From assembly GCA_002723275.1 (NCBI GenBank), contig PBNZ01000002.1, positions 369,745 through 433,744 of the forward strand: 64,000 nucleotides of DNA, written 5' to 3'. The DNA comes from Planctomycetaceae bacterium (GTDB taxonomy: Bacteria > Planctomycetota > Planctomycetia > Pirellulales > Pirellulaceae). Positions 6,347 through 50,925 of this stretch are shown piece by piece; positions within the stretch are counted from its first letter, which is position 1, and every line of letters begins with the position of its first letter. The notes below the pieces were generated by a model. It was not told where the DNA came from. It saw only the letters and a list, made by a program, of their open reading frames with translations, and ran no database searches. Made by a program: the position numbers and the translations under genes.

Positions 6347-6481
6347 CTCAGCCTCCGAAGAGATTTTTGTGAAGGGCAAGAAGCTTGGATGCAACGTGGT
6401 CCGCATCAGTTCCCTCATTTTTGTCCACTTATGTCGCCCTGGTGGTCGACCAACATCCGTGGTCTTTGCTCGTTATTCCGC

Positions 6482-9187
6482 CTAATTCTTCCGATACGTG
6501 GCCTTTACCTTTGTGACGTAATCTAGATCAGTGACGAATGTCGTGGCGGAATGGATATCCTCGATATACTCGGTGCTTCGTTTCCATTGATCGATGCCCT
6601 CGAAGTATTGGGGCTCGGCGCTGCCCACCCAGCGGTCAAATACCATCCCTTCGGCGGGCGGATCGGCTTGGACCAAAACCGGGTTTCTGAAATCAGGGTA
6701 GGTGCCACTGCCGCTCCCGTTAATCACTTCCAGTCGCCTTCTCCCCGCGAGCTTCACCGGTTCGATTTCTAGGAAATAAATCTCGGTTTGATTGGCGCTG
6801 CTGAGCGTCAGTCGCGCATCGGCAAGACCACTGCCGCCGTCTTTCATTTCGAAGGCTTCAAATTCGTAGATCTGATAGTGATCGCTTTGAATCGGGTCGT
6901 TGATTGACAGCGGAGTACGATCGGCGGACAGCTGTCCCACGTTCAGCTTGATCGCTCCTTGTGACTTTCTGGCACCTAGCCCCATCTTTAACCGATAGAT
7001 TCCTTTTGGCAGGCTGATGCCCCAGGAGTAGCTGCCATTCTCGTTTTCAAAAAGGTTATGGGTCGCCCGAATCAAATTAGACTCGGACGAATCCTGGGAT
7101 CCCGACAGGTTGTATCCGTTGAGCCAGCCGTAGGTGTAGCCGCTGAACTTCTTCGAATACGGTCCGCCACCGTCGGCCTGGTAGCCCGACGGCGCATAAA
7201 ATCCTTCCAGCGGTCCGAAGGTGAGCTTGATCGGCTTGCGGTAAAGATCCAGTGGATCTTCTGTGGCCACGAAGACAGGTTTCAAGGTGATGTCATGATC
7301 TGTCCGCACAGTCAGCCGTTGTTGGTTGCTTTTGAGATCTTTGGTCCAACTGTGAAAGCGATATCCCTCATCCGGGATAGCCTCAATCGCGACGTCGATC
7401 TTTTCCGCATAGATCCCTCCTGCTGGCTGAAGTTTCACGCGTCCGTTTTTCGCACTTTCGTCAATCGTGACTCTCACCTTCCTCGTCCCCACAGAGATCG
7501 TCGTGATATCGGTGCTGACGTTTCCTGATTGATCTGTCGCCCTCACTTCGATCTGGTGCACGCCAGGGGAAACATCCTGCAGCGCGGCCACCATGTGGCT
7601 TACGCGGGCTTCGTCCTTGATGAGCTGCCCATCGAGATACAGTGTCATCGTCGCAATGGAACCGGAGTTGTAATCGTTGGCAAAGGCTTCGACCTCTAGC
7701 TCAACAGGTGCTGATGCGATGATCACCTGATTCTTTTCTGGACGAACCGTGTTGACAATCGGTTTCGTGTCGTAGTAGGAATGCGCGCGACTATTCAAGT
7801 AGTCTTCAAGATTGAGGTATCCATCCTGGTTTCGGTCTGAATTACCATCGGCAGGATCCGCGGGGTCTAATTTTTGAGCGACTTCCCACACGTCAGGCAT
7901 TCCGTCGCCGTCCGTATCTGTCGGAGCGGCCGTCGACTTTAGTTGCGGCCAGCCGCCCACAGCATCTTGGGTATCGATCAGTCCATCGTGACTGCCATTA
8001 CCGCCGTCCTGACAGCTTGCCGTTCCGGTCTTAACGTCGTGGACGATTCTGCGATCAACAGCGTCTCGCTTCAGGCTGGCTCCGGCGAACTGGAGTACGC
8101 GCCGGTAGGCCTCTTCCGCGGTGTCGGTCGTTACCGTGCCAGTTTCCAAGGGACGTTCAAGACGCATTCGTTGTTTTTCTGTATCGCTGACTTGGCTCCA
8201 CTTTGAGTCAAACTGAACTCCGTATTTCCAGTTGTCGAGCGTCGCCCTCTTGGAGCCGTTCAGGACATTGCCGTGGATGTAGAATTTTCCCCAGACGTTG
8301 TACAAGGGATCCCATGTCTCAATGCGATTCCAGATCGCGACGATTCGCTCCTGGTTTTTGATCGTCGCGGGTCCCGGCTTGTAGTAATTGTTCACGATGT
8401 TTACGTTCATTCCCTCGCCGCCGTAACAGCTGTTGCCCTGCCAGTTGTAAATCACGTTGTTTCGGAGATCGACTCGGTCGGAGAGTGCGTAGCGGGAAAC
8501 GAACTCACCCAGCCTTGGGTTGCGGCTGTCGTGGTGGGCCAGCAGGTTGTGGTGAAAGGAAGCGTTCTGTCCGCCCCAGACGCCGCCGTTTCCGTGTTTG
8601 CCGCTCGCATGGACAGAATTGCGTAGACTTTCGCCTATCAGACACCACTGCATGGTGAAGTTTGAATTAGCGTAGAAGGAGGCGCATTCGTCCGTGGACC
8701 AACTCATCGAGCAATGATCGATAATCACGTTACGGTTTTTCTGGCCGCCCAACGCATCGGCTTGCTGCCGAGCTTCGTCACCCATGCGGAAACGCAGGTA
8801 GCGGAGAATCACTTCGTCACAGGCATCCAGGTAGACCTCGTGATTCTTGATGCAGATGCCATCGCCAGGAGCCGTTTGCCCCGCGATCGTAAGTTGGCCG
8901 TTGCGAATGGGGAGCCTACTCTCGAGTGCGATGGTACCGGATACATCAAACACGACAACCCGAACTCCCTTGGCTTCGACGGCAGCACGTAGGCTACCTT
9001 CTCCGCGATCATTTAGATTGGTAACCTTGATTACTCTACCGCCCCGCCCTCCAACGGTGTAGCGACCATGGCCCTCCGCACCCGGAAAAGCCGGGATCTC
9101 TCGTGCGCTTACCGCCGATGCAAAACAGAAAATGGCCAAGATGGTTCCCAGCCAACGTAAGATGGCCTCTTCGTTGAATATTTGCAT
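6482..9187 (-). CDS. Secreted pectate-lyase-like beta-helix protein with repeat domains
   Basis: The 901-residue product starts with a signal peptide ending near SAVSA. The first 400 residues follow the PL1-like parallel beta-helix pattern: AFPGAEGHGRYTVGGRGG, GEGSLRAAV, VIIDHCSMSWSTDE and VDLRNNVIYNW. A calcium-binding thrombospondin-3-like stretch (DTDGDGMPDVWE, NSDRNQDGYLNLEDY) sits at about 425-470. An Ig-like module follows, then an InlB-type divergent repeat (about 575-645), a carbohydrate-binding-like beta domain (about 655-820) and a second InlB-type repeat at the end. The expected role is binding and possibly cleaving polyuronate or algal polysaccharide at the cell surface. Catalytic residues could not be assigned with certainty. 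Confidence 0.85.
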   Translation of the reverse strand: MQIFNEEAILRWLGTILAIFCFASAVSAREIPAFPGAEGHGRYTVGGRGGRVIKVTNLNDRGEGSLRAAVEAKGVRVVVFDVSGTIALESRLPIRNGQLTIAGQTAPGDGICIKNHEVYLDACDEVILRYLRFRMGDEARQQADALGGQKNRNVIIDHCSMSWSTDECASFYANSNFTMQWCLIGESLRNSVHASGKHGNGGVWGGQNASFHHNLLAHHDSRNPRLGEFVSRYALSDRVDLRNNVIYNWQGNSCYGGEGMNVNIVNNYYKPGPATIKNQERIVAIWNRIETWDPLYNVWGKFYIHGNVLNGSKRATLDNWKYGVQFDSKWSQVSDTEKQRMRLERPLETGTVTTDTAEEAYRRVLQFAGASLKRDAVDRRIVHDVKTGTASCQDGGNGSHDGLIDTQDAVGGWPQLKSTAAPTDTDGDGMPDVWEVAQKLDPADPADGNSDRNQDGYLNLEDYLNSRAHSYYDTKPIVNTVRPEKNQVIIASAPVELEVEAFANDYNSGSIATMTLYLDGQLIKDEARVSHMVAALQDVSPGVHQIEVRATDQSGNVSTDITTISVGTRKVRVTIDESAKNGRVKLQPAGGIYAEKIDVAIEAIPDEGYRFHSWTKDLKSNQQRLTVRTDHDITLKPVFVATEDPLDLYRKPIKLTFGPLEGFYAPSGYQADGGGPYSKKFSGYTYGWLNGYNLSGSQDSSESNLIRATHNLFENENGSYSWGISLPKGIYRLKMGLGARKSQGAIKLNVGQLSADRTPLSINDPIQSDHYQIYEFEAFEMKDGGSGLADARLTLSSANQTEIYFLEIEPVKLAGRRRLEVINGSGSGTYPDFRNPVLVQADPPAEGMVFDRWVGSAEPQYFEGIDQWKRSTEYIEDIHSATTFVTDLDYVTKVKATYRKN

Positions 9188-29909: not shown

Positions 29910-29926
29910 CTGCAATGCGATTGCAG
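29910..29926. promoter_or_regulatory. 17-base palindrome upstream of fhcA
   Basis: CTGCAAT-GCG-ATTGCAG has perfect seven-base arms around GCG and lies 117 bases before the fhcA start. Its half-site TGCAAT is the one seen near the Fur-type gene at 46.6 kb. Operator function is inferred. Confidence 0.45.
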
Positions 29927-34436: not shown

Positions 34437-34643
34437 TTAATCTATATGCAAAACGTTTGCAAGTACTGATCGGTTGCTTTGGGAATGCCCAATAAGCAAG
34501 AATTTGTGTCCTTGCACGTGCAATAGGTTTCTGAGAATTTCGAAGTTGAGGGCAGACACATTGAGGAGGATTTTCGAGATCGAGGCAGCCTGTTGTTGAG
34601 AGGGGAGGCGCTGTTGAGGCCCCCGATAGAAGGGGATTTCCAT
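34437..34643 (-). CDS. Possible small protein encoded just after the COG0523 gene
   Basis: The 68-residue frame starts at ATG 34643, sixteen bases after the GTPase gene's stop, with an unusually good ribosome-binding site (GGAGAAGG, spacing five). The predicted product begins MEIPFYRGPQQRL and has a hydrophobic middle (LNFEILRNLLHVQGHKFLLI). I recognise no family. Two palindromes lie inside it. It may instead be a non-coding operator stretch belonging to the next gene. Confidence 0.35.
   Translation of the reverse strand: MEIPFYRGPQQRLPSQQQAASISKILLNVSALNFEILRNLLHVQGHKFLLIGHSQSNRSVLANVLHID
34447..34523. promoter_or_regulatory. Cluster of TGCAA/TTGCA palindromes
   Basis: TGCAAAACGTTTGCA (34447-34461, perfect six-base arms) and TTGCACGTGCAA (34512-34523, perfect 12-base palindrome) lie 51 bases apart. 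They sit 170-240 bases upstream of the gene starting at 34279 and just after the GTPase gene. The half-site matches boxes at 36.5, 36.8 and 46.5 kb. Confidence 0.5.
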
Positions 34644-34659
34644 CGCATCCTTCTCCATC

Positions 34660-35745
34660 CTATGGGACCAAGCACTCAAGAAGCTTGGTTTCAAAGTCTT
34701 CCCAGCCTGATGTCTTGCGGTCGAGAATTATTTCGAGGCGACTATCACGTCGATAGGCGGAAGGTGCGTAGGAGGTTCCGTCTTTAGCCCGATTGATCAG
34801 CCACCAATCGTCTTCGCATTGGAATACGCCTTTCAACCGAACAATGGGATGGACGTAACCGAGCAGGTCAAGCAGCTTGTCTCGATCGAAGATGTCATCG
34901 ACGTGAAAGATCCAACCGCATGCGTCATAGTCAGAGTCTTTATTCTGAAAGCGGAGAGGCTGGCGTGGAGTCGGCTTTCGCTGATTAAGATCGACCTCTG
35001 CTTCTGTATCATGTGCATGTTCCGAGTGATCGTGATTGCTTTCGGGGACCAGTTCGAGGACTGTAAGCTCAGGGCTCTCAGATTTTGCGGACGGGTGTGC
35101 ATCAGCAAAAAGAGGAAAACGCACTAACTCAAATTCCATGTCAAGCAATTTGGGGTCAATCACACCAAAGCTGGTTTCTACGACCAATTGTTTTGGCGGT
35201 GTGAACGTCTCGATCCATTCACGACAGCGGTCGATTAACTCGCGATCACGTTTATCCGTCCAATTCAAAACAACGATATCTGCCAATTGTACCTGATCTT
35301 GAAAGACCTCGGTATCACGCCAGCGAGGATCTTTGAAATCCTTGGGATCAATGATGCAAATGATGTTGCGAAGGTCGATTGCGCGGGAAAAGTTTGGGCC
35401 GCGGAGAATGTCGACGAGATTCGCTGGGTGGCTTACTCCCGAAGGCTCCAAGATTAAGCGATCGGGTTTCGTGCGACGGATGAATTGTGCGAGCAATGGT
35501 TCAAAGGCGAGCGCCAAAGTGCAACAAACACAGCCCCCACCTAATTCCTCGACGGCAACGCCCTCTTGGCCGGATTCAACTAAAGCATGGTCAATGGATA
35601 CGATCCCGTATTCATTCACCAAAATGGACCACAGTTCATCCGTTGGACGTTGATCGATTAGCTTTGTGATCGCCGTGGTTTTTCCTGAACCGAGAAATCC
35701 GACGATCACATTGGTCGGAATTCGCTCTCCCTTTTTCCAAGTCAT
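34660..35745 (-). CDS. COG0523 (CobW/ZigA-type) metal-chaperone GTPase
   Basis: The 361-residue product has the G3E GTPase layout. The P-loop is GFLGSGKTT, followed by VNEYGIVSID, the metal-binding GGGCVCC (CxCC) motif and LEPSGVSHP. A later NWTDKRD segment fits the NKxD-type base-recognition motif. A His/Asp-rich linker (ESNHDHSEHAHDTEAE) precedes the CobW C-terminal domain. Such proteins deliver or allocate metals, often zinc during starvation under Zur control. ATG 35745 (MTWKKGER) is chosen over an upstream TTG that has no ribosome-binding site. It follows the 35843 gene by 97 bases and probably shares its palindrome-bearing promoter. Confidence 0.9.
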   Translation of the reverse strand: MTWKKGERIPTNVIVGFLGSGKTTAITKLIDQRPTDELWSILVNEYGIVSIDHALVESGQEGVAVEELGGGCVCCTLALAFEPLLAQFIRRTKPDRLILEPSGVSHPANLVDILRGPNFSRAIDLRNIICIIDPKDFKDPRWRDTEVFQDQVQLADIVVLNWTDKRDRELIDRCREWIETFTPPKQLVVETSFGVIDPKLLDMEFELVRFPLFADAHPSAKSESPELTVLELVPESNHDHSEHAHDTEAEVDLNQRKPTPRQPLRFQNKDSDYDACGWIFHVDDIFDRDKLLDLLGYVHPIVRLKGVFQCEDDWWLINRAKDGTSYAPSAYRRDSRLEIILDRKTSGWEDFETKLLECLVP

Positions 35746-35842
35746 TTTCTCGTCAACATCCCCCGTAGTTGCTCGGTTCAAAAGAGCCCCGCTCCGTAAG
35801 AGCTCCAAGGGTTGAATGTAAGCTTACACAAGCCGGATGACT

Positions 35843-36487
35843 CTAGGGAATGAAGTACTCAGGATGATCTGACACCGCGGCGCCTAACATTTGCCAGGCG
35901 TCCGCCATCTGTTCCGGTGGCACTGAGTCGTTTTTTTCACTCCAAGGAAGCAGTGTCTCGGCTCGATAATCAAGTCCGGCCTGTTCCGCAATCCAGCTTT
36001 CGTACTGATGAATCCAATCAATCAATTCCAACAACAAGTGCTGGCAGTCCCGAACTCGATCCTCTCGTGGCGAAACAAGTGGCGGCAAGTCTTCCACTGA
36101 CCACGGGGGTCGAGAGCAATCCGACGATGGCGTGAGTTGCGGTTTGAAAACGAAACGACGCAGGAACACACCACCCCAGCGATTGTCACCAAAGAAGACA
36201 CCGAACCCTCGTAAGATGACGCGCGACTCCGGTGACAATTCCAACCGATAGAGACTGGCGAAGTTGCTGCCTGCTGGTTTTTCGGTGCGCAGAAACCCAT
36301 GCTGTACTAACAGGTCTCCCTTGGAACTCAGGATGTCTTGTCCCCAACACCAGATTTGCTGATTGAGTAAACTAGCCGCTTGTTGTTCCGCATCCTCCAG
36401 TCGAATGACAGTCTCGATAGATCCTCGCTTCACGGCAGCTGCTCCTCGATGATTCATTTCAACAACTACTGGGCTTTTCCAATGCAT
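35843..36487 (-). CDS. Hypothetical cytosolic protein paired with the COG0523 GTPase
   Basis: The 214-residue product has no signal peptide, membrane segment or family I recognise. Notable tracts are IWCWGQDILSSKGDLLVQHG, FGVFFGDNRWGGVFLRRFVF and a C-terminal helical part with WIHQYESWIAEQAGLDYRAE. ATG 36487 is taken, although a TTG two codons upstream is possible; neither has a strong ribosome-binding site. The palindrome TGCAATTGCA lies 40-50 bases before the start. It is the first gene of the unit that includes the metal-chaperone GTPase, so a metal-limitation role is inferred from context only. Confidence 0.65.
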   Translation of the reverse strand: MHWKSPVVVEMNHRGAAAVKRGSIETVIRLEDAEQQAASLLNQQIWCWGQDILSSKGDLLVQHGFLRTEKPAGSNFASLYRLELSPESRVILRGFGVFFGDNRWGGVFLRRFVFKPQLTPSSDCSRPPWSVEDLPPLVSPREDRVRDCQHLLLELIDWIHQYESWIAEQAGLDYRAETLLPWSEKNDSVPPEQMADAWQMLGAAVSDHPEYFIP

Positions 36488-36526
36488 GCCCAATAAATGC
36501 TGGTGCGATCAAGCTGTTTTCGCAGG

Positions 36527-36680: not shown

Positions 36681-36834
36681 TGCAACAAATATGCAAAAGC
36701 AGGTTGTTTGCAAAAGCGGAGTCGGTTCATCCGTTCCCATCAAGAATTTTGGAGCAGCTTGCATTGAGCTCGGTGAATAACCTAGAATGCAATAATCTAG
36801 ATGCAAATAAATTGCATGTGTATCGTATTTGCAA
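36681..36834. promoter_or_regulatory. Dense TGCAA/TTGCA operator-like region
   Basis: This region holds half-sites at 36681, 36692 and 36707, another TGCAA at 36788, and the palindrome ATGCAA-ATAAA-TTGCAT at 36801-36817. It also has a wider inverted repeat with arms TGCAAATA (36802-36809) and TATTTGCA (36826-36833). The last site is 93 bases before the ATG of the ZnuA-like gene. Overlapping palindromes of one half-site suggest cooperative binding by a Fur-family dimer. Confidence 0.6.
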
Positions 36835-36926
36835 TATAGGGTGTTGTTTCAGATGATTCGAAAGGCTCGGTGTCAATCTGTGCTGCTGGCTGCTTTCGAG
36901 CTGTGTGGCCGGGCCCCAGGAATTCA

Positions 36927-37580: not shown

Positions 37581-38273
37581 TCAGGCAGCGTCGCGATTTT
37601 GATCCGGCGTTGTTTCTGTCGTATGACCTTCAGTGATATGAAAGATGCGTTGAGCAGACGATGAAACGGTCTCGTCGTGGGTGACGAGAATGATCGTTCG
37701 GCCTTCGTTACAGAGCTCATGCATGGTCCGAAGCACCAGGTCACGCGACTCGGGATCCAGGTTCCCCGTGGGTTCGTCAGCGAGAATCAGATTCGGTCCC
37801 ATCGCAAGCGTTCGCGCCATCGCAACGCGTTGTTGTTGTCCAGCGCTCAACTCCGCAGGCTTGTGTTCCAGACGCTCACCCAGGCCAAACCGCTCCAGCA
37901 GATGACGAGCCTCTTTCGCCTGCTTGACGCGGTCGCCTCCATACAGCGCCATCGGCAACTGCACATTCTCAACGGCGCTCAGATAGGGCACGAGATTGAA
38001 GCTCTGGAATAGAAATCCGATTTGTTCGTTACGGAGTCGCGACCGTTGTTTCACGTTGATTTCATAGAGCGATTTACCGTCCAGGATCACCCGGCCGGAC
38101 GTTGGCGACAGCATTCCGCCAATCATCGACAGCAACGTCGACTTGCCGCTTCCGCTGGGCCCGACAATGGCGATAAATTCACCTTGACCGACTTCGATGG
38201 AGGTCGGATGCAATGCGTGGATAACGCTGCGTCCACGTGTGTAGTCTCGGCAAATCGATTCAATCTGAAGCAT
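37581..38273 (-). CDS. LolD/MacB-type ABC transporter ATPase
   Basis: The 230-residue product has Walker A GPSGSGKST, a Q-loop in FLFQSFNLVPYLSAVENV, signature LSAGQQQRVAMAR, Walker B LILADEPTGNLD and switch histidine in ILVTHDE. This is the LolD/MacB/FtsE subgroup, whose members drive FtsX-type permeases by mechanotransmission rather than classic transport. The partner permease gene lies 100 bases upstream on the same strand. It is placed next to the ZnuA-like gene (convergent) and within the operator-bearing region, so a metal or metallophore role is an inference. Confidence 0.95.
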   Translation of the reverse strand: MLQIESICRDYTRGRSVIHALHPTSIEVGQGEFIAIVGPSGSGKSTLLSMIGGMLSPTSGRVILDGKSLYEINVKQRSRLRNEQIGFLFQSFNLVPYLSAVENVQLPMALYGGDRVKQAKEARHLLERFGLGERLEHKPAELSAGQQQRVAMARTLAMGPNLILADEPTGNLDPESRDLVLRTMHELCNEGRTIILVTHDETVSSSAQRIFHITEGHTTETTPDQNRDAA

Positions 38274-38373
38274 GACACGTGACTCGCTAATATTAATATT
38301 GAGGAGCAGAGATTACGAACATCAGAAAGGTGTCGGATGGTCAATCGACCGAAATAGGCAACTGCGGTTGTGA

Positions 38374-39624
38374 CTAGGAATCCTGAAAACAGAGGCAAGG
38401 ATCTAAGTGCGCCGCTTTTCTTGCCGGTGGGTAGCTTGCCGCGAGAGCGACGATCAAGGCGACAATCATGCCGATGATCACGGCATTCATGGAAACGCTC
38501 GTTGCCACACCGAGAAACTGCGGTCCTGCGAGAAAAGCAGCGATCAAACCAAGAGCCAGACCGCAAACTCCGCCAAACAGTCCGACGGCGGATGCCTTGA
38601 GCAGGATCATGCGACTTACCATGCCTGGCGTGGCACCCAATGCCATGAGCGTTCCGAGTTCCCGTTTCCGCTCGGCAACATTCGCGAACATCACGCTCGC
38701 GATGCTGGCTCCGCCAATCATCATCAGAATGGCGAAAATGACATAGGACAGCCGATTCATCAGCCGGTTAACCGTGACTTGCGTTTGCACGATCTGTGAG
38801 ATGGTGACGGCGCGAGCGTCGGGCAGCAGTTCATTCAGTTCCCCGACAAGAGTGGTGGCTACTTCCTCACAACATCCCATGACCTCGATCACATTCACAA
38901 TCGGGCCACTCTCCGCTACTTCTTGCACGCGGTGCAGATGGGCAAGGACTCGGCTATCGTCACTGGTCCCGGTCGCCGGCAGAATGCCCGCTACCTGAAA
39001 CTCTTCGCCGAGGATGCGAATGGATTGTCCTTCTTCGATTCTCTGTGATTTGGCAAGGTCGGCACCAACCAGGGCTGAATCCATTTCGAGCGCGTGCACA
39101 ATCCGGGTTGATGCGTAGGAACTAATGTCGGTCTTGTCAGCGGTAACAATCTGACAGGATCGACCACCGCACCCTTCGTGTTTCTTGCCAACAGCGCTTT
39201 CGCTCAAGCCTGAGGTTAGCAAGTCGACACTTTGCCAGGCGGACTTCTTGTAGAATTCCGTTCGTGGCAGAATGCCCGTTACCACAATCGAATCGCCTCC
39301 CAGTTCAGCGGGTACAGAAAGCTTGGGAGCGAGTTCTTCGACGCCAACCTTTTGCGCCAACGCGATTCGTGTAACGTATTCCTCCGGCAATGATTTGCCA
39401 TGAGCATCGGCGGCATAATAGTCCTGGAGTGTCACGCCGTCGGGAAGAATCAGGATGTTCGCACCAAGCTGCTGCATTTGCGACGCAACCTTCTGTTCCG
39501 ACGAACCGACGACGCTTTCCACCGCGACCAATGCCGCGACTCCCAAGGCAACGATCAGCAGTCCCGTCAGGGTGTGTCCTGGCCGGCGTAGCATTTCTTT
39601 CCAGACCATTGAATGAAAGTTCAT
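38374..39624 (-). CDS. FtsX/MacB-type ABC permease
   Basis: ATG 39624 follows GGGAGAG with seven bases of spacing. The 416-residue product has the MacB/LolC topology: one N-terminal membrane helix (LTGLLIVALGVAALVAVESV), a large extracytoplasmic domain (residues about 45-280), then three helices. These carry the conserved RKRELGTLMALGATPGMVSR and LFGGVCGLALGLIAAFLAG. The periplasmic part contains paired cysteines (EGCGGRSC, EVMGCCEE). It pairs with the ATPase gene downstream. The substrate is unknown. Confidence 0.92.
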   Translation of the reverse strand: MNFHSMVWKEMLRRPGHTLTGLLIVALGVAALVAVESVVGSSEQKVASQMQQLGANILILPDGVTLQDYYAADAHGKSLPEEYVTRIALAQKVGVEELAPKLSVPAELGGDSIVVTGILPRTEFYKKSAWQSVDLLTSGLSESAVGKKHEGCGGRSCQIVTADKTDISSYASTRIVHALEMDSALVGADLAKSQRIEEGQSIRILGEEFQVAGILPATGTSDDSRVLAHLHRVQEVAESGPIVNVIEVMGCCEEVATTLVGELNELLPDARAVTISQIVQTQVTVNRLMNRLSYVIFAILMMIGGASIASVMFANVAERKRELGTLMALGATPGMVSRMILLKASAVGLFGGVCGLALGLIAAFLAGPQFLGVATSVSMNAVIIGMIVALIVALAASYPPARKAAHLDPCLCFQDS

Positions 39625-39663
39625 GGACAATCTCTCCCTCGAATGCTGTTTCCAGGCTGTTGA

Positions 39664-39694
39664 TACCTCAAACGTCAAAATGCGATTTGAGGTA
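39664..39694. promoter_or_regulatory. Inverted repeat upstream of the permease gene
   Basis: Perfect nine-base arms TACCTCAAA (39664-39672) and TTTGAGGTA (39686-39694) are separated by 13 bases, 40-70 bases before the permease ATG. No T-run follows on the minus strand, so an operator or attenuator is more likely than a terminator. Confidence 0.45.
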
Positions 39695-39769
39695 ACTCTT
39701 ACCCGATGTAAAGCTGGTCTGACTGGGTTCGTGGAAATACGTTGTCAAAGGTCTCGCATAGACAGAATG

Positions 39770-40495
39770 CTATTTCTTCTTCTTTTGGCATTTGGTGCAA
39801 TTGCACTTGCCCGACTTATGAAGTTCCTGAGCAAGCTCCTGACCCTTGACCGATGCGTTAAAGGTTCCGAGATGCGTGCCGGGAGGTGCAAACATCATGA
39901 CGACGGGGGTCGTTAGATTTCGATCGACTTGCATGCGATTGAAGAAGTCGGCCTCGGAACTGTCGGTCGCATACACGTTGACCTGGTGCAGCTTGCCTTT
40001 GAAATCAGCATCTCGGTGGAGTTGTGCAACACCGGTCGGAATGGGCATGGCTGTTGCCGGCATCAGGCAGACAACTGCAATCTTTTGGCTCTGAAGTGCC
40101 TTGACCATGTCAGAGTACATCGGCGTCAGCATTGAATTGGTGAGCTGTTCCTGGCTGACTCTTTGTCGATAAACACCGGTGACAGCACCGTTGGGAGCGA
40201 CACTGAAGACGGCCGGGAGTGGAATTCTTGTCGCGTCAAATCGTTTCACGAGCCGAGACTCAGCGCGATCCTGGATGTTGACCACAGCCCAGGTGGTTTT
40301 TTCGCGAGTTTCAGCGACATGTGACCGAATCGTGTTTGCCATCTGTTCCGTTGCAGCGTTGTCGGCACGATAGAACATGACATAGGTGTACTTCCCGTTC
40401 TTGGCAGCGGCTTCAACGCGCTCCGTCATCTTGGCGGCAAAGCCGTTCACGGGAAGGAAGGCAAGAATGACAATTAGGCCCAGTAGACTACGCAT
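39770..40495 (-). CDS. Secreted thioredoxin-fold-like protein with C-terminal Cys cluster
   Basis: The 241-residue product has a signal peptide (LLGLIVILAFLPVNGFA). It has two alpha/beta halves that look thioredoxin-like: YTYVMFYRADNAATEQMANT, AVVNIQDRAESRLVKRFDAT then RIPLPAVFSVAPNGAVTG, and later TTPVVMMFAPPGTHLG. The usual CxxC active site is absent from both halves. The protein ends KCNCTKCQKKKK, a compact Cys/Lys tail that could bind a metal. It lies upstream of the permease and ATPase genes on the same strand and may belong with them. The function is unknown. Confidence 0.65.
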   Translation of the reverse strand: MRSLLGLIVILAFLPVNGFAAKMTERVEAAAKNGKYTYVMFYRADNAATEQMANTIRSHVAETREKTTWAVVNIQDRAESRLVKRFDATRIPLPAVFSVAPNGAVTGVYRQRVSQEQLTNSMLTPMYSDMVKALQSQKIAVVCLMPATAMPIPTGVAQLHRDADFKGKLHQVNVYATDSSEADFFNRMQVDRNLTTPVVMMFAPPGTHLGTFNASVKGQELAQELHKSGKCNCTKCQKKKK

Positions 40496-40778: not shown

Positions 40779-43151
40779 TCAACCTTGCGTTTGCCGACTG
40801 ATATGGCGCGAGGTCCAGAGTCGACCGATGCAGTGGCACCGTTGGACGATTTCCCGATCGGTGCAAGGCCATTGTTTTTCGGACGGGTGCATGGGCCGAT
40901 AGAGGGCCCAATCGGCCAGGGTCATGAGTGAGCGCAGTGACTCGGCTGCTTCCGGAGCTGCATTGCCGGCCATGGGCTCGTACCACTGACGCAATGTTCG
41001 AGCCTGTGGCCTGCTGTGACCGGCCATCCAACTACGCCATTCGAGCATCCGAATGGTCCAGAGGATTCGGCGGCGTGATGAGCCAAAGCTGACCGCCATC
41101 CAGAACGCATACGAGGCAAAGTCAAATACCGCCCGTCGGAAGACGATTAAGCCAATCCCGAAACCCAGCAGCGCGGTGGAAAGAAGAAGATTGGCTTGCA
41201 CCCATTTGAACATCGCACCTGTGGTTTTTGCGAGTTTTTGATTCCAGCTGAGTACAGTCAGAGGTGGCTCGTAGCCCGGTGTGGGTTCGATTGGAACCCA
41301 GGTGCGATCGTCGACACATACCTCTGCCCAGACGTGGGCGTCCTCGTCTTCGACGATTGTTTGTCGGCTCTGTCGATCGTAATCCTGCGGATCCGCATAG
41401 AACCCTGAGACGACACGGGTGGGGTATCCGAGCATTCGCAGCATCACGGCCGCGGTTGAGGCGAACATATAGTCGGGACCACGACGAGCTGCGAGAAAAT
41501 GACTTACCGTATCTTCGCAGTCTTCGGGAGCGGTCGCCTGAGGATCATGCTCAAAATCCGTTCGCAGGTGTTCGACGACGGCTTCGACCTGCCGCCAGCC
41601 GGCGGGAACATCCATCGTCCAACGATGTGCGATTTCGGAAATGTGATCCTGCTCCACTGGGTCCGGCAGAGCAAGATACGAGGACATTTCCTCTCCGGCA
41701 GAAAATTTTATTGGTTGTCTGTCGCGCAGCGGTGTCAGGTTCATGCGATGCGAGTTTAAATTGACAACCGTTAGTTGCGGCACGAATTCACGGCCGCGCA
41801 TCTCCAGGATTCCATCGTCAGTCCAACCAAAGAAGTCGGGCCGATCGACACGATCGATGTGCCACGCATTCAACTGGGCAGGCGACGGAATGCGTATCGT
41901 CCGAAGATTGATGATCTTCACGGCGTGTTGGTCGGTGCCAGAGAAGATTGGGTAGCTGCAGCTCCGGGGCGCCACAATCCATGGCTCGCCGTCAACGTTT
42001 TTCATGCTCATCTTGGGACCGATTGTATCTTCCTGGTGGGAAGACCATTCGGTGCCATCAAAATGATCGTAGGTTGCCAAGGCGAGATGCAGTGGTGTCT
42101 TGCCGACAACATAGAACATAGCAGTCGCGTCACGATCTTTGAGTGATTCACGCCACCGCCGAGCTTTTCTCCGCACGGTCGAGAACTCGCGCCCCGATTG
42201 TTTCGATAGGGCTGGATCTTTTTCGAATTCAGTGGAGTCTTCAGGCCGGAGGGAAATTGCCTTCTGGCTCTTGCGCACCTTTTTAGGATCCCCGTACATG
42301 TCGTTGAAGACGTCATACAGACTGGGCAGCTCCGATTCCAAAAACAGCTCCGACTCCACCGCTCCAAAGGTCATCGCCTGATCCTTCGCGGCCACCAGCA
42401 TATCGCCGTCACCCACGCCTGCGCGAGCGTAAGGATCGGACCCGCGATTACCGCCGGAGCTTGGCATGAATCCAGGCAGCACGAACGTATCCGAGCTGAC
42501 CGTCAAACTGGCGAGCGCCACGCCACCCGTCAACACGAAAAGCGTGGCCAAAACCGCGCCGGCGCGAACCGGGACTTGGCGCGTCGTTTCGGCGGCGAAG
42601 CGACCCTGGAGCCGATCCCAATAGGCATTCATCAGCCACCACATTCCCGCGATTCCGAACAGGGCGGCAAGAACATAGGCCACGCGACTTGCCGTGATGA
42701 TGATGATAAATAACACGAGAAATCCGCTGAGCAGGAACGAGATTTCTCCGGCACGTCGCCATTGCGCCAGTACCGCCGCACCAAGGGCAGCATTCTGCAT
42801 GCACAGCAGCATGATAATCTCAGCAGTATCCCCTGCTCCGAACAACGGCCGCGATACAAATTGCACGAGAATCGGAAGGACGATTAGCAATGCCAACAGT
42901 GCCTGCAAGGATCCTGGCATATTCATGTTTCCGCCAGGAAAACGCCGACTCATCCTGAAGAGTAGCGTCACGCAGAGGATGACCAATCCAAGCTCAGCAA
43001 AAACGAGACCTAAGTGTGATTGCGTCTCGAACCGAAAGCACTGCGTGATCCCGGCGGCCAGAATTGCGAGCACGACACTTGTCACACGTTGGTTGCGTGA
43101 AGTGGCATCGCAATCGATGGGTTTGTATTCAGACGGTGCGCCAGACGTCAT
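40779..43151 (-). CDS. Membrane transglutaminase-like (TgpA-type) protein with altered catalytic site
   Basis: ATG 43151 follows AAAGGA and overlaps the DUF58 gene by 23 bases. The 790-residue product has an N-terminal bundle of membrane helices (about 20-215), an extracytoplasmic transglutaminase-like core (about 510-630), another helix near 655-680 and a cytosolic tail. The core keeps the family's shape (FASTAAVMLRMLGYPTRVVS, HVWAEVCVDD). The triad is not canonical. Where active members read GDCEHFA this one reads GPDYMFA (Asp for Cys, residue about 558). The final DPT is EPT (about 622), while the His in DAHVWAEV is kept (about 604). It may bind rather than cleave or cross-link. Confidence 0.88.
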   Translation of the reverse strand: MTSGAPSEYKPIDCDATSRNQRVTSVVLAILAAGITQCFRFETQSHLGLVFAELGLVILCVTLLFRMSRRFPGGNMNMPGSLQALLALLIVLPILVQFVSRPLFGAGDTAEIIMLLCMQNAALGAAVLAQWRRAGEISFLLSGFLVLFIIIITASRVAYVLAALFGIAGMWWLMNAYWDRLQGRFAAETTRQVPVRAGAVLATLFVLTGGVALASLTVSSDTFVLPGFMPSSGGNRGSDPYARAGVGDGDMLVAAKDQAMTFGAVESELFLESELPSLYDVFNDMYGDPKKVRKSQKAISLRPEDSTEFEKDPALSKQSGREFSTVRRKARRWRESLKDRDATAMFYVVGKTPLHLALATYDHFDGTEWSSHQEDTIGPKMSMKNVDGEPWIVAPRSCSYPIFSGTDQHAVKIINLRTIRIPSPAQLNAWHIDRVDRPDFFGWTDDGILEMRGREFVPQLTVVNLNSHRMNLTPLRDRQPIKFSAGEEMSSYLALPDPVEQDHISEIAHRWTMDVPAGWRQVEAVVEHLRTDFEHDPQATAPEDCEDTVSHFLAARRGPDYMFASTAAVMLRMLGYPTRVVSGFYADPQDYDRQSRQTIVEDEDAHVWAEVCVDDRTWVPIEPTPGYEPPLTVLSWNQKLAKTTGAMFKWVQANLLLSTALLGFGIGLIVFRRAVFDFASYAFWMAVSFGSSRRRILWTIRMLEWRSWMAGHSRPQARTLRQWYEPMAGNAAPEAAESLRSLMTLADWALYRPMHPSEKQWPCTDREIVQRCHCIGRLWTSRHISRQTQG

Positions 43152-44454
43152 GGCATATCCTTTCCCACTGACTACGTAACGCGCCGGCTGCTTGATGCGG
43201 ACCGGGAATCTCGATCCAGGACGGTTGCGAGGAAGTGGTGATGGGAGATGGGAAAGGTTGTTCTCGATCAGCTGCTTCAAAACCATCCGTGTGCAGAATG
43301 ACCAATCGCGTCGAGTTGGCAGATCCGTTTTGGTGGAGCGAATCGACGCCTCGATCGGTTGTTACAAGAATCGAGAGTAGATTTGCATTTGACGCAGTGA
43401 GCCGTAGTGGCGCCTTGCCGTCGGACGGTTCTGGCTCAAGACGCGCAAGACAATCGAGGAGACGTTGGATCCCCGCCGGCCCGGCTTCAGCGACGAGACA
43501 TCGTGTTCCGAACATGCACTCCACGCGTGAGTTGTGAGCATGAAACTGTCTGCACAAAGTTGCGCCGATACGGATGGCCCATTCCAATGAACCTCGCGTG
43601 ATGCTCCCGCGATGGAATGTCGTTCGAGTGTCGATCGTCACTCGCACTGTTCGTCGAGCCGTGGCCTGACCCTCGCAGACGATTAACTGGTCGTGGCGCG
43701 CTGTCAGCGGCCAGTGAACTTTTCGCAAAGAATCGCCACGTCGATACGGGCGAACGCCCAGCACGTCGCCTTCATTTCCCGTATTGTTACTAAGCATGCC
43801 GGCCACCGTAAAATCTTGGCCATAAACCGGTGGAACCGAATCGAGATCGATCATTTTTGGCCACACGATCAGTTCACTGACCACTTCGATCGGGCGCCGA
43901 GCGTGCCAAATGCCAAATGGGAATCCCATGGCCAAGACCGGCCGATCCGCAGGATAAACTCCTCGACGCGGTGGCTCAAATGTCCAGTAGTATGAGTTCT
44001 TGGACCAGCCGGGAATTCGTGCGAGGGCCACAGCCGTCGGGTTGCCGCTCCCGTCGGCTTCTGCGAAGAAGCCGCGTTCAATGGCCAGTCCTCGCACGGG
44101 CCATGGCCAACGGTTCACGACATCGAGCCGAACGGAAACGGACTGGCCTTCCTGGATTCGCGATTTGACGAAGCGAAGCCGGCAGGCCAGTCCCTGAATC
44201 TCGATCCACGGCCAGAGTACACCCACCAGCATGAATGCCATAATTGCCGCAAACATGATCATCGCCTGTGGCTCGAGAGTCAGGCCAATCAACAGACACG
44301 CACCTGCGGCGATGACGAACCAGCCAATCGGTTGTTTGAGCCAATACACATAGCGGTTGGCCCATGGGCAAAAATCATGATTCAACGTGGCACTTATTCC
44401 GCGCAGTCCCTTTGACCACACGGTAGCTCCGTCTCTCCTGCGATTGCCGCTCAT
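43129..44454 (-). CDS. DUF58 protein
   Basis: ATG 44454 follows AAGGAG with seven bases of spacing and overlaps the upstream stop as ATGA, a sign of translational coupling. The 441-residue product has two N-terminal membrane helices (GWFVIAAGACLLIGL and AIMAFMLVGVLWPWI). The DUF58 signature is GVRPYRRGDSLRKVHWPLTA, and a von Willebrand-A-like C-terminal domain includes VTIDTRTTF. DUF58 proteins usually sit with MoxR-type ATPases and TgpA-type transglutaminases in envelope-maturation operons. Here the transglutaminase-like partner is present and no MoxR gene is seen. Confidence 0.92.
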   Translation of the reverse strand: MSGNRRRDGATVWSKGLRGISATLNHDFCPWANRYVYWLKQPIGWFVIAAGACLLIGLTLEPQAMIMFAAIMAFMLVGVLWPWIEIQGLACRLRFVKSRIQEGQSVSVRLDVVNRWPWPVRGLAIERGFFAEADGSGNPTAVALARIPGWSKNSYYWTFEPPRRGVYPADRPVLAMGFPFGIWHARRPIEVVSELIVWPKMIDLDSVPPVYGQDFTVAGMLSNNTGNEGDVLGVRPYRRGDSLRKVHWPLTARHDQLIVCEGQATARRTVRVTIDTRTTFHRGSITRGSLEWAIRIGATLCRQFHAHNSRVECMFGTRCLVAEAGPAGIQRLLDCLARLEPEPSDGKAPLRLTASNANLLSILVTTDRGVDSLHQNGSANSTRLVILHTDGFEAADREQPFPSPITTSSQPSWIEIPGPHQAAGALRSQWERICHDVWRTV

Positions 44455-45785
44455 GATGGAACTCCTTCTCCAAGTTCCAAATTGATGAGGTTGGCCACTC
44501 GGGATTTGCGGGACAACAGGCGAGCCAAGGTGCAGGTAGCAACAACCCCAACACATGACATCGAAATCGAGACAACGCTTGAGTGCGGTCCCGGCCAAAG
44601 TGGCCAGTCAGTGAGCGAGCTCCAAAGGCAGATGTGAAGGATCGTCGCCAACAATATCCATCCGCTCGCCGGCATGTTGGTGATTTGCGGCCAACGTCTT
44701 GCAATCACGACCGCACAGATGAGAAACAAAGCGGTGAACACGGCTATGGATAGCGCCGCCTGCCACCCTAAATAGACGCCCACCAGAATCATGCTTGCCG
44801 TTTCAGGGGCATACCGGCGCTGGCTTTTCGCGGTTTGAGTGTTCGAGAACATCGCAGTCTTGAGAACAGTCCCGAGACATGCTCCTACGACCAGACCTGC
44901 CAGGGTTGTGTCGATGCGTTCCAGCCAGGACCAGTGTGCGAGCCAATCCGGATAGTGTTTCAGCCAGGCCACGGGTTGGAGAGTCGGCGAGATAGCGGCA
45001 ACCAAAGCACCCAAGCCAAGGCCCGTGAGAACCAGCCGCCTCGGGATACGAGCTCGCTCCCATTGGATCAGGCTCATCACGAGCAAAAAGCAGAGCAGCG
45101 TCATGTGGTAGGCATACGTGCCTACGACGTCCCACTTGGGGTAGAAGATAATCCACACAAACCCGTCGTGGAAATAATGTCTTTTGAAGGGGACGTTGGC
45201 GCAACCTGAAAGGAGTTCCACAAAGAGAAGGAGCAGAAAGATACCGGCCGTCAAAGCTTCCACGAATGGGTATCGAGGAGAGATCTCTACGTGGCATGTT
45301 CGACAACGACCACCCAGGGTAAACCACGCCAGGATCGGAATGAGGTCCCACCGTCTAATTCGTGCGTTGCAGGAAGAGCAACGCGATGATCCACTGATGG
45401 ATGTTCCCTGGTTCATCCGACCGGCGACGACGTTTAGAAAGCTGCCGAGGCTTGCGCCCACGGCAAAAATCCAGAAGACGACGAAGAACTCGGAAGAACG
45501 GAGACGTATGCTCTCGCCCAGGGTCAATTCTTCCAAGACGGGACCTTGATCAACAGGTTGCCAGGCGTCGATCGCGCTCCTCGCAATCGGAAAGATGAAC
45601 ATGTAGGTTACCGAGGCGCCGAGCAGAATACTCCAGATCGCGACAATCCTCCAACGGTACCGAGTTCGAGGAACCGCGTCGTGTGAATGCGATTCTGAGC
45701 TTGAAGTACCCGTCGTATCGACGACATCGTCCTTCGATTCTCTCACGATGGATTCACTTTCTAGATCGTGATTCCTGGAATTCAC
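44451..45785 (-). CDS. Prepilin-peptidase-like membrane protein with altered catalytic aspartates
   Basis: Starts at GTG 45785 inside the previous stop (GTGA overlap). The 444-residue product has the A24-family plan. A membrane helix comes first, then GASLGSFLNVVAGRMNQG and a zinc-type cytosolic loop with two CxxC pairs (CSSC and CRTC around IRRWDLIPILAW). About eight further helices follow. Active members need an Asp in 'LIDxxxxxIP' and another in 'GGGDVK'. Here these read LIQWERARIP (Gln, residue about 239) and YAPETAS (Glu, about 326), although the LGWQAAL tail of the second motif is intact. It may be a non-proteolytic relative. Confidence 0.85.
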   Translation of the reverse strand: MNSRNHDLESESIVRESKDDVVDTTGTSSSESHSHDAVPRTRYRWRIVAIWSILLGASVTYMFIFPIARSAIDAWQPVDQGPVLEELTLGESIRLRSSEFFVVFWIFAVGASLGSFLNVVAGRMNQGTSISGSSRCSSCNARIRRWDLIPILAWFTLGGRCRTCHVEISPRYPFVEALTAGIFLLLLFVELLSGCANVPFKRHYFHDGFVWIIFYPKWDVVGTYAYHMTLLCFLLVMSLIQWERARIPRRLVLTGLGLGALVAAISPTLQPVAWLKHYPDWLAHWSWLERIDTTLAGLVVGACLGTVLKTAMFSNTQTAKSQRRYAPETASMILVGVYLGWQAALSIAVFTALFLICAVVIARRWPQITNMPASGWILLATILHICLWSSLTDWPLWPGPHSSVVSISMSCVGVVATCTLARLLSRKSRVANLINLELGEGVPS

Positions 45786-46312
45786 CGGTGCACCTTTCCG
45801 CTCGCCGGCAGATCCCGTGAGAGACGTGTTGGATTTAATTGCCTGCGCCCGGAAAAAGTTAGGTCAAGAACGTCTGCCAGAATTAGCGTAATGAGCATGC
45901 CAATATGAATCTGTAAAGCATATCGGCACGTCTCCGCCAACACGTGTTGTGGCGGTGGGGAGAGCAGATTTTGCGTTGCGAAAAGTATCGCCAGAAGTCC
46001 GATTGAGATACAGATGGAAAGCACATGGGACCGCAGGCCTCCAAGCACTCGTACGACAATCCAACCGGATGACACGATGAGGATCCAACCGACCGCTATT
46101 TGAATGAGCGGCAGCCAATAGATTGCACTGACAACAACCGTCGCTAGACACAAGAGTCGAATCAGTTCCGATGGGATTGTTCCAGTCGCCGGGACTGCTG
46201 TTGATTCTTGTGCCGTTGTCTCATGTGCTGTCTGCGACACTCTCGTCGTCGCAGGTGGCATTCGAACCTGGGCCGAACAAATCGCTTCGCGTTTTACGTT
46301 CTTGGTATCCAT
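45782..46312 (-). CDS. Small polytopic membrane protein, first gene of the operon
   Basis: The 176-residue product has a polar, Thr-rich cytosolic start of about 45 residues. About four hydrophobic segments follow (LLCLATVVVSAIYWLPLI, IAVGWILIVSSGWIVV, SICISIGLLAILFA, HIGMLITLILADVLDL), and the tail is basic. I recognise no family. Its last codon overlaps the start of the prepilin-peptidase-like gene by four bases (GTGA), so the two are translationally coupled. That makes it the leader of the four-gene operon 46312-40779. Confidence 0.75.
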   Translation of the reverse strand: MDTKNVKREAICSAQVRMPPATTRVSQTAHETTAQESTAVPATGTIPSELIRLLCLATVVVSAIYWLPLIQIAVGWILIVSSGWIVVRVLGGLRSHVLSICISIGLLAILFATQNLLSPPPQHVLAETCRYALQIHIGMLITLILADVLDLTFSGRRQLNPTRLSRDLPASGKVHR

Positions 46313-46497: not shown

Positions 46498-46586
46498 TGC
46501 AAAATATTATAATTGCAACCGGATTGCAAGTAACTGCCATATGTGTCACCATTGAGAGATGTTCGTACATGCAATGCAATTGCAAA
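46498..46586. promoter_or_regulatory. TGCAA/TTGCA operator-like cluster before the Fur-family gene
   Basis: TGCAA-(10)-TTGCA spans 46498-46517, TTGCAA is at 46524-46529, and TGCAATTGCA at 46575-46584 is nested in overlapping copies of TGCAAT (46570, 46575). The decamer is identical to the one at 36527. The cluster lies 65-150 bases before the regulator gene, as expected for autoregulation, and also 185 bases before the divergent membrane operon. Confidence 0.65.
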
Positions 46587-46650: not shown

Positions 46651-47088
46651 ATGAATGGCACTGAAACAGACACCGCTTGGGCAAAGCAGGCGCTTCGAGA
46701 TGTGACCCTGCGTGCTACCGCTGCGCGGGTAGCCGTCCTGAAGCTACTCGCGTCCAAAGGGGTTCCGATGAGCCATTCGGAGGTTGTTGAATCGCTCGCC
46801 GAGTTTGGGTTTGATCAATCGACGTTGTTTCGCTGTCTGAACGAAATGGCTCATGCTGGCCTGCTGTCCCGACTTGACCTTGGTGATCACACGAGACGTT
46901 TTGAACTGAAAAAATCGAGTGACGAAGCTGAGTTCACCCACGCTCATTTCATGTGTGTCGATTGCGGCGAACTTCAGTGTATGGATGATTACTCGTTGCA
47001 GATTACTCCATCGCGAGGCCCCCGGCGGAACAACCTGGGTACGATCACCGAAATTATGATTCGCGGCCACTGCGGTCAATGTAATTGA
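46651..47088 (+). CDS. Fur-family metalloregulator, Zur-like
   Basis: The 145-residue product has the Fur winged helix: LRATAARVAVLKLLASKG, the recognition region SHSEVVESLAEFGFDQSTLF and RCLNEMAHAGLLSRL. The dimerisation domain follows, with the metal block EFTHAHFMCVDCGELQC. Structural zinc would be held by Cys102/Cys105 and by Cys141/Cys144 in GHCGQC at the very C-terminus. The two CxxC pairs and the COG0523, ZIP and ZnuA-like neighbours favour a zinc regulator over Fur, PerR or Mur. That choice is an inference. Palindromic sites upstream suggest it controls itself. Confidence 0.88.
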   Translation: MNGTETDTAWAKQALRDVTLRATAARVAVLKLLASKGVPMSHSEVVESLAEFGFDQSTLFRCLNEMAHAGLLSRLDLGDHTRRFELKKSSDEAEFTHAHFMCVDCGELQCMDDYSLQITPSRGPRRNNLGTITEIMIRGHCGQCN

Positions 47089-50139: not shown

Positions 50140-50925
50140 TCACATCCAGATCGCTACCAATGCCATCAGGCCTGCGCCGAGCAATGTCCAGATAAGGCGT
50201 TTGCTGCGGTTGCTGCCGCCGGGAAAGAACTCCTCACGTACGACATCGAGCGTTGCGATGTAGAGGAAGGTGCCTGAGGCAACGGCCTTGAACCATGCTT
50301 CGGCGACGCCGCTTCCTAAGCCAAACAGATCAATTGCAAGGCCGCCCAGGATGACGCCTAAGGGCGTGCTGCCGACGAAAAATAGTAGCGCTGGAATCCG
50401 TGTGCGAATTGGTACGGCAGCTTTTTGGAAGGTGGAGCCAAGGGCGAAGCCAGCAGCCCCTTTGTGTGCCAGGATGGCCACTAACAGTACTGCCGCGCCT
50501 GAGGAAGACGAGATACCAAGCGTGACCCCAGCGATGAAGCTGTGGATCGAGAGGGTGATCAAGAGGAGATAGGGTGTGATTCCATTCTGGTCCTTGGAGT
50601 TCAGCAGGGCATCAGATTCAGGATCTGTGACCGTGTTTCCGGCTCCCATCGCGATGGGAATCACCCGCTCGAGGCCGAGCACCAGAATGAAGGCCAGAGT
50701 TGCGATGCCGTAAGCCGCTGGGTATTCGACATTCGGATAAGCGGCAGCGAAGCCATTATTCGCATCGGCGAGGAGGTGGATGAGTCCTGCGGCAAGCAGT
50801 ACGCCGCCGGCAAAACTGTTGCCGTAGGCGATCACACGTCCGTTGCCGCCGCGGTCCACAAGCCAGGGGGCAAAGACGCCAGCGATGCCGACAGCCGCAA
50901 TCAACGCCGCCGAAAGCAGAATCAT
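50140..50925 (-). CDS. ZIP-family divalent metal transporter
   Basis: The 261-residue product has eight predicted membrane segments and the ZIP metal-path motifs. These are HLLADANN in helix 2-3, HSFIAGVTLGIS in helix IV and HKGAAGFALGSTF in helix V, which supply the binuclear-site histidines. The family imports zinc, iron or manganese down-gradient. It lies 3 kb from the Fur/Zur-like gene, but no TGCAA palindrome was found in the 337 bases upstream. A small inverted repeat (GTCGAG/CTCGAC, 50957-50975) is there instead. Start ATG 50925. Confidence 0.92.
   Translation of the reverse strand: MILLSAALIAAVGIAGVFAPWLVDRGGNGRVIAYGNSFAGGVLLAAGLIHLLADANNGFAAAYPNVEYPAAYGIATLAFILVLGLERVIPIAMGAGNTVTDPESDALLNSKDQNGITPYLLLITLSIHSFIAGVTLGISSSSGAAVLLVAILAHKGAAGFALGSTFQKAAVPIRTRIPALLFFVGSTPLGVILGGLAIDLFGLGSGVAEAWFKAVASGTFLYIATLDVVREEFFPGGSNRSKRLIWTLLGAGLMALVAIWM

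Follow-up and report, generated by a model that had tools for sequence, protein, structure and literature searches.

To our knowledge, modules that join a MoxR ATPase, a DUF58 protein and a transglutaminase are poorly understood. Here we describe a branch of such modules, starting from a minus-strand operon of four overlapping genes in a 64,000-nucleotide stretch (the window) of contig PBNZ01000002.1 from a Planctomycetaceae bacterium (assembly GCA_002723275.1; 47 contigs, 96.6% complete). The operon encodes a small membrane protein (SMP, P0004), a prepilin peptidase-like protein of the A24 type (P0003), a DUF58 protein (P0002) and a TgpA-like transglutaminase homologue without the catalytic Cys (P0001). 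We favour, with a probability of about 0.55, the reading that this operon encodes the membrane half of an envelope complex which responds to metal, is driven by MoxR and has non-catalytic parts.

The closest described relative of P0001 is Pseudomonas aeruginosa TgpA (PA2873; PDB 6g49 and 6g4h), whose periplasmic domain has the fold of P0001. We take PA2874 and PA2875 to be DUF58 and MoxR genes, PA2875 being the MoxR gene. According to the accessible part of the TgpA study, tgpA is co-transcribed with these two upstream genes (PMC3507681). The planctomycete operons differ from the TgpA operon by adding an ArsP_1-type permease and often a His-rich lipoprotein. P0003 has in common with PilD, a bifunctional prepilin peptidase/N-methyltransferase, the N-terminal A24_N domain with its CxxC-CxxC cysteines. 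Unlike PilD, P0003 has no catalytic Asp pair and no GxGD motif, and members of its class are encoded beside, or once fused to, the pseudo-transglutaminase. In the consulted part of a study of P. aeruginosa PilD, zinc is required for methylation, not for cleavage, two residues next to the third Cys, one glycine and one basic, contribute to methylation, and the role of pilin methylation is called unknown (PMC3584216).

Zur regulons that include COG0523/ZigA GTPases offer a third comparison, and predicted Zur sites have been associated with COG0523 genes in the text available to us (PMC2770081). The likeness lies in Fur-family genes, CobW/ZigA-type genes, a shared dyad and a ZIP gene in the window. 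The differences are that the window regulator is assigned by Pfam to the Fur family only, and that the dyad TGCAAN5TTGCA was defined in the present analysis. The main text of PMC2770081 contains neither planctomycet- nor Rhodopirellula. The SO_0444-type permeases (NF033936) are the nearest described family for the permease of this genome (PF03773), which scores 56.6 bits against a cut-off of 300 and differs in being encoded with MoxR and a His-rich lipoprotein. Papers on the bifidobacterial PFNA cluster contain the words MoxR, DUF58 and transglutaminase; that cluster is actinobacterial and is likened here by words alone, not by sequence. Literature searches covered MoxR/DUF58/transglutaminase, prepilin peptidase with planctomycetes, dead prepilin peptidases, PilD with zinc, TgpA, and planctomycete MoxR/permease/transglutaminase. 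Among titles and abstract beginnings, mostly without subscription papers, none described this operon or a split of PilD such as that proposed below. Searches for COG0701 with Zur returned no literature, and those for DUF318 nothing useful.

The Cys-less transglutaminase homologue and its operon

P0001 matched PF01841 (Transglut_core) with 71.4 bits (cut-off 23). An AlphaFold2 model built from P0001 and 44 homologues had a mean pLDDT of 80.5, with ten-residue means of 84-97 over about residues 501-640. Its nearest solved structure was the TgpA periplasmic domain 6g49 (Foldseek, 2.5e-12; VIA-align, Z 22.4, rmsd 3.5, 260 residues), which a sequence profile of P0001 also found (4.2e-9). In the profile alignment, with which the family alignment agreed, Cys, His and Asp of TgpA aligned with D560, H606 and E622; P0001 has the fold without the triad. 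The first-pass annotation had claimed Asp and Glu in place of the Cys and the final Asp, and both replacements were borne out, no intact Cys or Asp being found at the site.

The family alignment comprised P0001 and one sequence from each of 80 named loci. Position 560 was Asp in 59 of the 81 sequences, Ser in 11, Ala in 6, Glu in 2, and Pro, Gly and Asn in one each; Cys occurred in none. In the 80 readable rows position 606 was always His, and position 622 was Glu in 77 and Asp in 3. An overlapping set of 20 unnamed relatives had equally lost the Cys. TgpA itself, unlike the planctomycete family, keeps Cys-His-Asp, and it is described as active. Because Cys is absent from all 81 sequences, the catalytic loss, as judged by alignment, is a property of the whole family and no local decay. 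A transglutaminase fold that plays a role without that catalysis is a sensible reading. A metal site formed by D560, H606 and E622 was considered and dropped, position 560 being too variable. The C-terminal helical part (residues 669-786) gave a weak match to a HEPN-like bundle (Z 7.8), which is within chance for helical bundles.

Full-length relatives of P0001 were present in 23 genomes besides its own among 60 searched (own included), and in all 23 the DUF58 gene lay directly upstream of the transglutaminase gene. The first 20 of these pair loci contained MoxR (PF07726) in 20, the ArsP_1-type permease (PF03773) in 18 and, by profile, the His-rich lipoprotein in 13; all three genes were found at each of three further loci. 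The upstream side often carried a small His/Cys-rich protein or MerC. Neither the His-rich lipoprotein nor the small His-rich protein matched a Pfam family. A scan of named genomes gave 124 relatives, and the 80 loci kept include Rhodopirellula, Neorhodopirellula, Stieleria, Aquisphaera, Paludisphaera and Tautonia. MoxR was found in 69 of the 72 named loci with at least 1.1 kb downstream, in 64 cases within 300 nt of the transglutaminase frame. Where at least 3.5 kb downstream was available (58 loci), the permease was present in 54 and the lipoprotein in 43, and a small His-rich gene or MerC occurred in 29 of the 63 loci with at least 3 kb upstream. What is counted here is loci and not independent lineages, because L127-L151 (unnamed) and L213-L292 (named) share some places and near copies occur among the named ones. 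As a rule, the genes for DUF58 and the Cys-less TgpA-like protein share their operon with those for a MoxR AAA+ ATPase and an ArsP_1-type permease, and in many cases with one for a His-rich lipoprotein. P0002 is presumed to be the MoxR adaptor. Near the operon of L143 (9635-10622), Flp-pilin-like and TadV-like frames were noticed by eye.

The absence of MoxR recorded in the first-pass annotation holds at the locus, where no MoxR gene adjoins the DUF58-transglutaminase pair, but not for the genome. A PF03773 search of the own genome found one place only, on contig C37, where a small His-rich protein, MoxR, a His-rich lipoprotein and the permease are encoded in this order. Only about 300 bases separate the small His-rich gene from MoxR, where DUF58 and transglutaminase normally sit. 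Because C37 carries the set without the pair, and P0001 matches its own genome once, in the window, the lack of MoxR is best read as a split: the window operon and the C37 set are two halves of a broken operon. Both loci are internal to their contigs (493,560 and 142,819 bases), and a genome of the same genus (G001) keeps the whole operon (L145). The nearest NCBIfam model of the C37 permease, NF033936, describes SO_0444-type Cu/Zn efflux (2.3e-15).

Conservation of the operon as the same four genes was rejected by comparison of the surrounding loci. Iterated profiles found no DUF58 or transglutaminase relative in 60 loci around P0003 relatives, and none of the first 20 pair loci contained an A24-like gene. 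At one A24 locus (L043, genome G011), MoxR, lipoprotein and permease of the operon lie about 3.3 kb from the A24-like gene, which is beyond the permease and outside the matching pair locus.

The A24-like protein and its class

P0003 matched PF06750 (A24_N) with 90.5 bits (cut-off 23) and carries the four zinc Cys. Its match to PF01478 (Peptidase_A24) was 17.0 bits, below the cut-off of 26.5. Gln stands at the first catalytic Asp, as the first-pass annotation had it. The Glu assigned to the second site depends on the alignment: it is Glu by eye and a gap in the larger alignment, in which 67 of 69 class members, P0003 included, have a gap. It is never Asp, and the GxGD segment is missing.

Relatives of P0003 matched in 59 of the 60 genomes; the one miss (G034) is 72% complete. 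Regions around them were fetched from 54 genomes, own included, and the genomes with an A24_N match outside the residue checks are G038, G052, G053, G055 and G059. The class of 69 consists of P0003, 59 proteins from the fetched regions and nine encoded beside transglutaminase genes, and includes two short frames (L086, 135 aa; L091, 215 aa) whose peptidase half is wholly or partly gone; the former (6406-6810) is the A24 zinc domain alone. The four zinc Cys were present in 69/69, the first Asp in 7/69 and both Asp in 0/69. The third Cys was preceded by G-K/R in 59, by A-K/R in 7 and by neither in 3. Because the zinc half keeps its four Cys and mostly the G-K/R-C signature, P0003 may still be an enzyme: the peptidase half appears dead, and the zinc (methyltransferase) half may be active. 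The proposal that both enzyme folds had become binding or scaffolding parts thus agrees with the transglutaminase family, and for the A24-like protein with the peptidase half only.

The reverse pattern was seen in long A24 proteins, examined as one per genome in 21 genomes (own C29 gene and 20 relatives, fetched from some of those with a long A24 frame). Both Asp were present in all 21, and no Cys occurred at any of the four places. The own C29 gene adjoins two genes that look like aroE and aroK. One further protein (L087, genome G041) has the cysteines and both aspartates; it is the single A24_N match of G041, looks bifunctional, and comes from the sole genome of the 54 examined without a zinc-only class member. 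A quick tree by IQ-TREE, with SH-aLRT support only, united the 21 reverse-class proteins in one clade (99), which L087 joined (100), and put the 69 class members on the other side of that branch. In the own genome, C23 and C29 each encode an A24 peptidase in which both motifs are present, that of C23 being short and without a zinc domain, and C2 encodes a second zinc-only A24-like protein.

The predicted structure of P0003 had a mean pLDDT of 58 and no fold match at E <=0.001, and nothing was concluded from it. A sequence search for a solved homologue found none, its one hit having an E-value of 0.6. Clustering of genes neighbouring the class showed UbiD-, SDR- and beta-CASP-type genes at some loci and no common theme.

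A24-like class members were found in nine of the 80 named transglutaminase loci, in four lineages. In six related loci (Mariniblastus and other metagenome-assembled genomes) the gene follows the permease. In L220 it directly follows the transglutaminase, with MoxR, lipoprotein and permease about 6.6 kb further on. In L268, from the draft genome of Tautonia sociabilis, the A24-like and transglutaminase proteins share one frame, and Tautonia has a complete operon elsewhere besides this fused copy. In L213 the gene lies nearby on the opposite strand. On a FastTree tree of the transglutaminases, the window and the nine loci require five gains or losses, each of them forced by branches with good support. 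In the 1.04 Mb that the 80 loci span, chance would give about 0.17 A24-like genes, compared with nine found; for four lineages, a number of our own reckoning in which L213 is weakest, the Poisson probability is 3e-5. Four loci have no MoxR at the locus (window, L220, L268, L272), and three of them carry an A24-like gene. Members of the A24-like class have entered the transglutaminase system several times, in one case by fusion.

By blastp, P0004 resembles the N-terminal membrane extension of the longer A24-like proteins of L220 (5e-6 without composition correction, set of 5) and L038 (6e-4, set of 61). This weak likeness suggests that P0004 and P0003 may be one protein split in two in the window. 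Against Pfam, P0004 gave a sub-threshold match only (TgpA_N, E 0.71).

Fur-type context and operator-like sites

A metal and Fur-type regulatory context, overlooked in the first-pass annotation, is present around the operon. The divergent Fur-family gene (Table 1) encodes a protein that shares 75.7% identity, across 144 residues, with the product of another Fur gene, which lies beside tandem sites on contig C24. The 338-base gap between the operon and the window Fur gene contains TGCAACCGGATTGCA and TGCAATGCAATTGCA. The motif TGCAAN5TTGCA was picked by reading this intergenic region, and the window counts are partly post hoc: five sites compared with 0.14 expected, as many in none of 100 shuffles. 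Besides those of Table 1, sites lie at 29911-29925 and 34447-34461; the former is close to the 5' end of a frame that looks like an amidohydrolase and has a QueD/PTPS-like neighbour, both named by eye.

Genome-wide the dyad occurred 19 times, compared with 9 for a reversed control. Seven of the 19 sites have a clear metal context: two at the window operon; one in the gap between the CobW pair and its divergent neighbour; one each ahead of a ZigA hit (596 bits) and of a ZigA-like GTPase gene (211.6 bits), the cut-off being 600 in both cases; and a tandem pair between the second Fur gene and MerC. The remaining 12 fall inside genes, precede genes of other kinds, or lie outside the places examined. 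A trait of Zur regulons, an operator-like dyad shared before predicted zinc-chaperone GTPase genes, is thus seen in the sequence. A longer pattern with one mismatch gave 38 sites in the own genome vs 24 for the control.

The 104 operon loci (own C37 and 103 from relatives) contained the dyad 19 times and the control twice, with some sites counted twice (L127/L224 and L139/L245 are the same places). Among 35 dyads with permuted half-sites, the largest count was 9 and none reached 19. In L139/L245 and L253 the dyad immediately precedes DUF58. It precedes MerC or the operon in L257 and L262, whereas in L127/L224 and L218 it sits next to the permease end, with a Fur gene on one side and MerC on the other. 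The sites of L132, L145, L149, L151 and L215 are placed otherwise: within the operon or well away from it, past the permease, or at a Fur or MerC gene. Post hoc choice weighs less on the genome-wide, relative-locus and permuted-half-site tests than on the window counts.

The CobW/COG0523-type GTPase of the window perhaps belongs to the same regulon; we have no evidence for its membership in the complex. A ZIP-family metal transporter gene (50140-50925; PF02535, 115.8 bits) is another sign of a metal neighbourhood. A TGGTC-N-GACCA dyad was seen in three upstream regions (two of them L141 and L142), a number equalled in 1 of 100 shuffles, and perhaps belongs to another regulator.

Proposed mechanism and rival readings

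In the complex that we favour, Fur/Zur-type control would switch the system with metal supply. MoxR made from the C37 locus would act via DUF58 on the membrane-anchored pseudo-transglutaminase, whose periplasmic domain would bind a partner instead of cross-linking proteins. The partner could be the His-rich lipoprotein, or metal through the retained H606 and E622. Its binding would assemble or gate the permease, the pseudo-transglutaminase being a receptor or gate and not an enzyme. The A24-like protein would dock on the cytoplasmic side as a zinc-dependent sensor, scaffold or methyltransferase. A Cys-less branch with a permease, a His-rich lipoprotein and Fur-type operator-like sites would give the module a concrete, testable job.

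Several results weigh against this proposal. The window Fur scores below every NCBIfam cut-off, and nearer to Fur than to Zur models. Twelve of the 19 genome sites lack a clear metal-gene context, and the control itself gives 9. A blind search for exact dyads in 22 upstream regions failed: its best dyad occurred in 3 regions, and the shuffle maxima were 1 to 3, with 3 reached in 1 of 100. No exact dyad was found near the C37 half, and co-regulation of the halves is therefore unsupported. The variable residue at the position of the lost Cys gives no sign of a conserved metal site, and 71 of the 80 named loci have no A24-like gene. The structurally closest protein, TgpA, is catalytically active, and the consulted part of PMC3507681 connects it with no metal. 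There PA2875 is non-essential whereas tgpA is essential (PMC3507681), a warning, by analogy, that such modules may have functions for which MoxR is dispensable.

In a first rival reading, MoxR, DUF58 and the TgpA-like protein serve envelope maintenance and the metal genes are chance neighbours. The fold match to TgpA (Z 22.4) speaks for it, and so does TgpA itself, reported in the available text as co-transcribed with PA2874 and PA2875, essential, intact in its triad and EDTA-insensitive in activity (PMC3507681). We consider it doubtful, in view of the recurrent ArsP_1 permease (54/58 loci) and His-rich lipoprotein (43/58), of MerC and Fur genes and motif sites that accompany part of these loci, and of a C37 permease nearest, though far below cut-off, to the Cu/Zn efflux model. 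A decaying, non-functional operon fragment would fit the split in the own genome and the two of four members without active-site residues; this is very improbable, since the frames are long, intact and overlapping, and since 81 and 69 homologues share the losses and keep other residues invariant.

A somewhat better candidate than either, still unlikely in our view, concerns the A24-like protein, which would be a working prepilin N-methyltransferase split from its peptidase and acting on pilin-like proteins, with an incidental place in the operon. PilD, whose zinc serves methylation and not cleavage as far as the consulted text goes (PMC3584216), favours it, together with the universal four Cys and common G-K/R of the class, the long paralogues with both Asp and none of the Cys, and G041, which lacks a zinc-only protein and keeps both residue sets in one. 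However, recurrent joining to the pseudo-transglutaminase, with one fusion, is hardly incidental, and G005 has no PF01478 match at all, which goes against a simple pairing of the two classes. The envelope-complex proposal can be extended in this direction, which we regard as speculative and improbable as a whole. Planctomycetes would have split PilD, one protein cutting prepilins without zinc and a second keeping the zinc-methyltransferase half. The second would have been recruited several times, once by fusion, into a Fur/Zur-controlled MoxR complex round a dead transglutaminase, where a zinc-dependent methyltransferase or zinc sensor would report metal status to a metal permease. Apart from this reading, the two PilD-like paralogues of planctomycetes, one lacking the zinc Cys and the other the catalytic Asp pair, offer a natural means of separating pilin cleavage from methylation.

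The features of the window are collected in Table 1. The open reading frames agree with the gene overlaps of 4, 4 and 23 bases claimed at first pass, and A24_N, DUF58 and Transglut_core are over their Pfam cut-offs in P0003, P0002 and P0001, respectively. The P0001 frame has a further, earlier ATG at 43286.

Table 1. Genes and operator-like sites discussed in the text (positions in the window)
Feature	Position	Strand	Size or setting	Match or character
Pseudo-transglutaminase P0001	40779..43151	-	790 aa from ATG 43151	TgpA-like fold without Cys
DUF58 protein P0002	43129..44454	-	441 aa	PF01882, 31.9 bits (cut-off 23.4)
A24-like protein P0003	44451..45785	-	444 aa, GTG start	zinc domain intact, peptidase half apparently dead
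Small membrane protein SMP, P0004	45782..46312	-	176 aa	
Operator-like site 1, TTGCAACCGGATTGCAA	46513..46529	.	intergenic operon-Fur	
Operator-like site 2, TGCAATGCAATTGCA	46570..46584	.	intergenic operon-Fur	
Fur-family regulator	46651..47088	+	divergent to operon	PF01475, 46.6 bits (cut-off 23.1)
Operator-like site	36802..36816	.	between CobW gene pair (-) and gene at 36870 (+)	
CobW/COG0523-type GTPase	34660..35808	-		PF02492, 133.8 bits

Downstream of the operon on the same strand, the window encodes an ABC ATPase, an FtsX/MacB-type permease and a thioredoxin-like protein with a Cys-rich tail (37581-40495). A protein without Pfam family is encoded at 35843-36493, and in L038 and L040 one that looks similar by eye is encoded in the neighbourhood of A24-like genes. 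A nearly identical stretch of about 3 kb occurs on both C16 and C18 of the same assembly (L310, L311), from either a duplication or an assembly effect.

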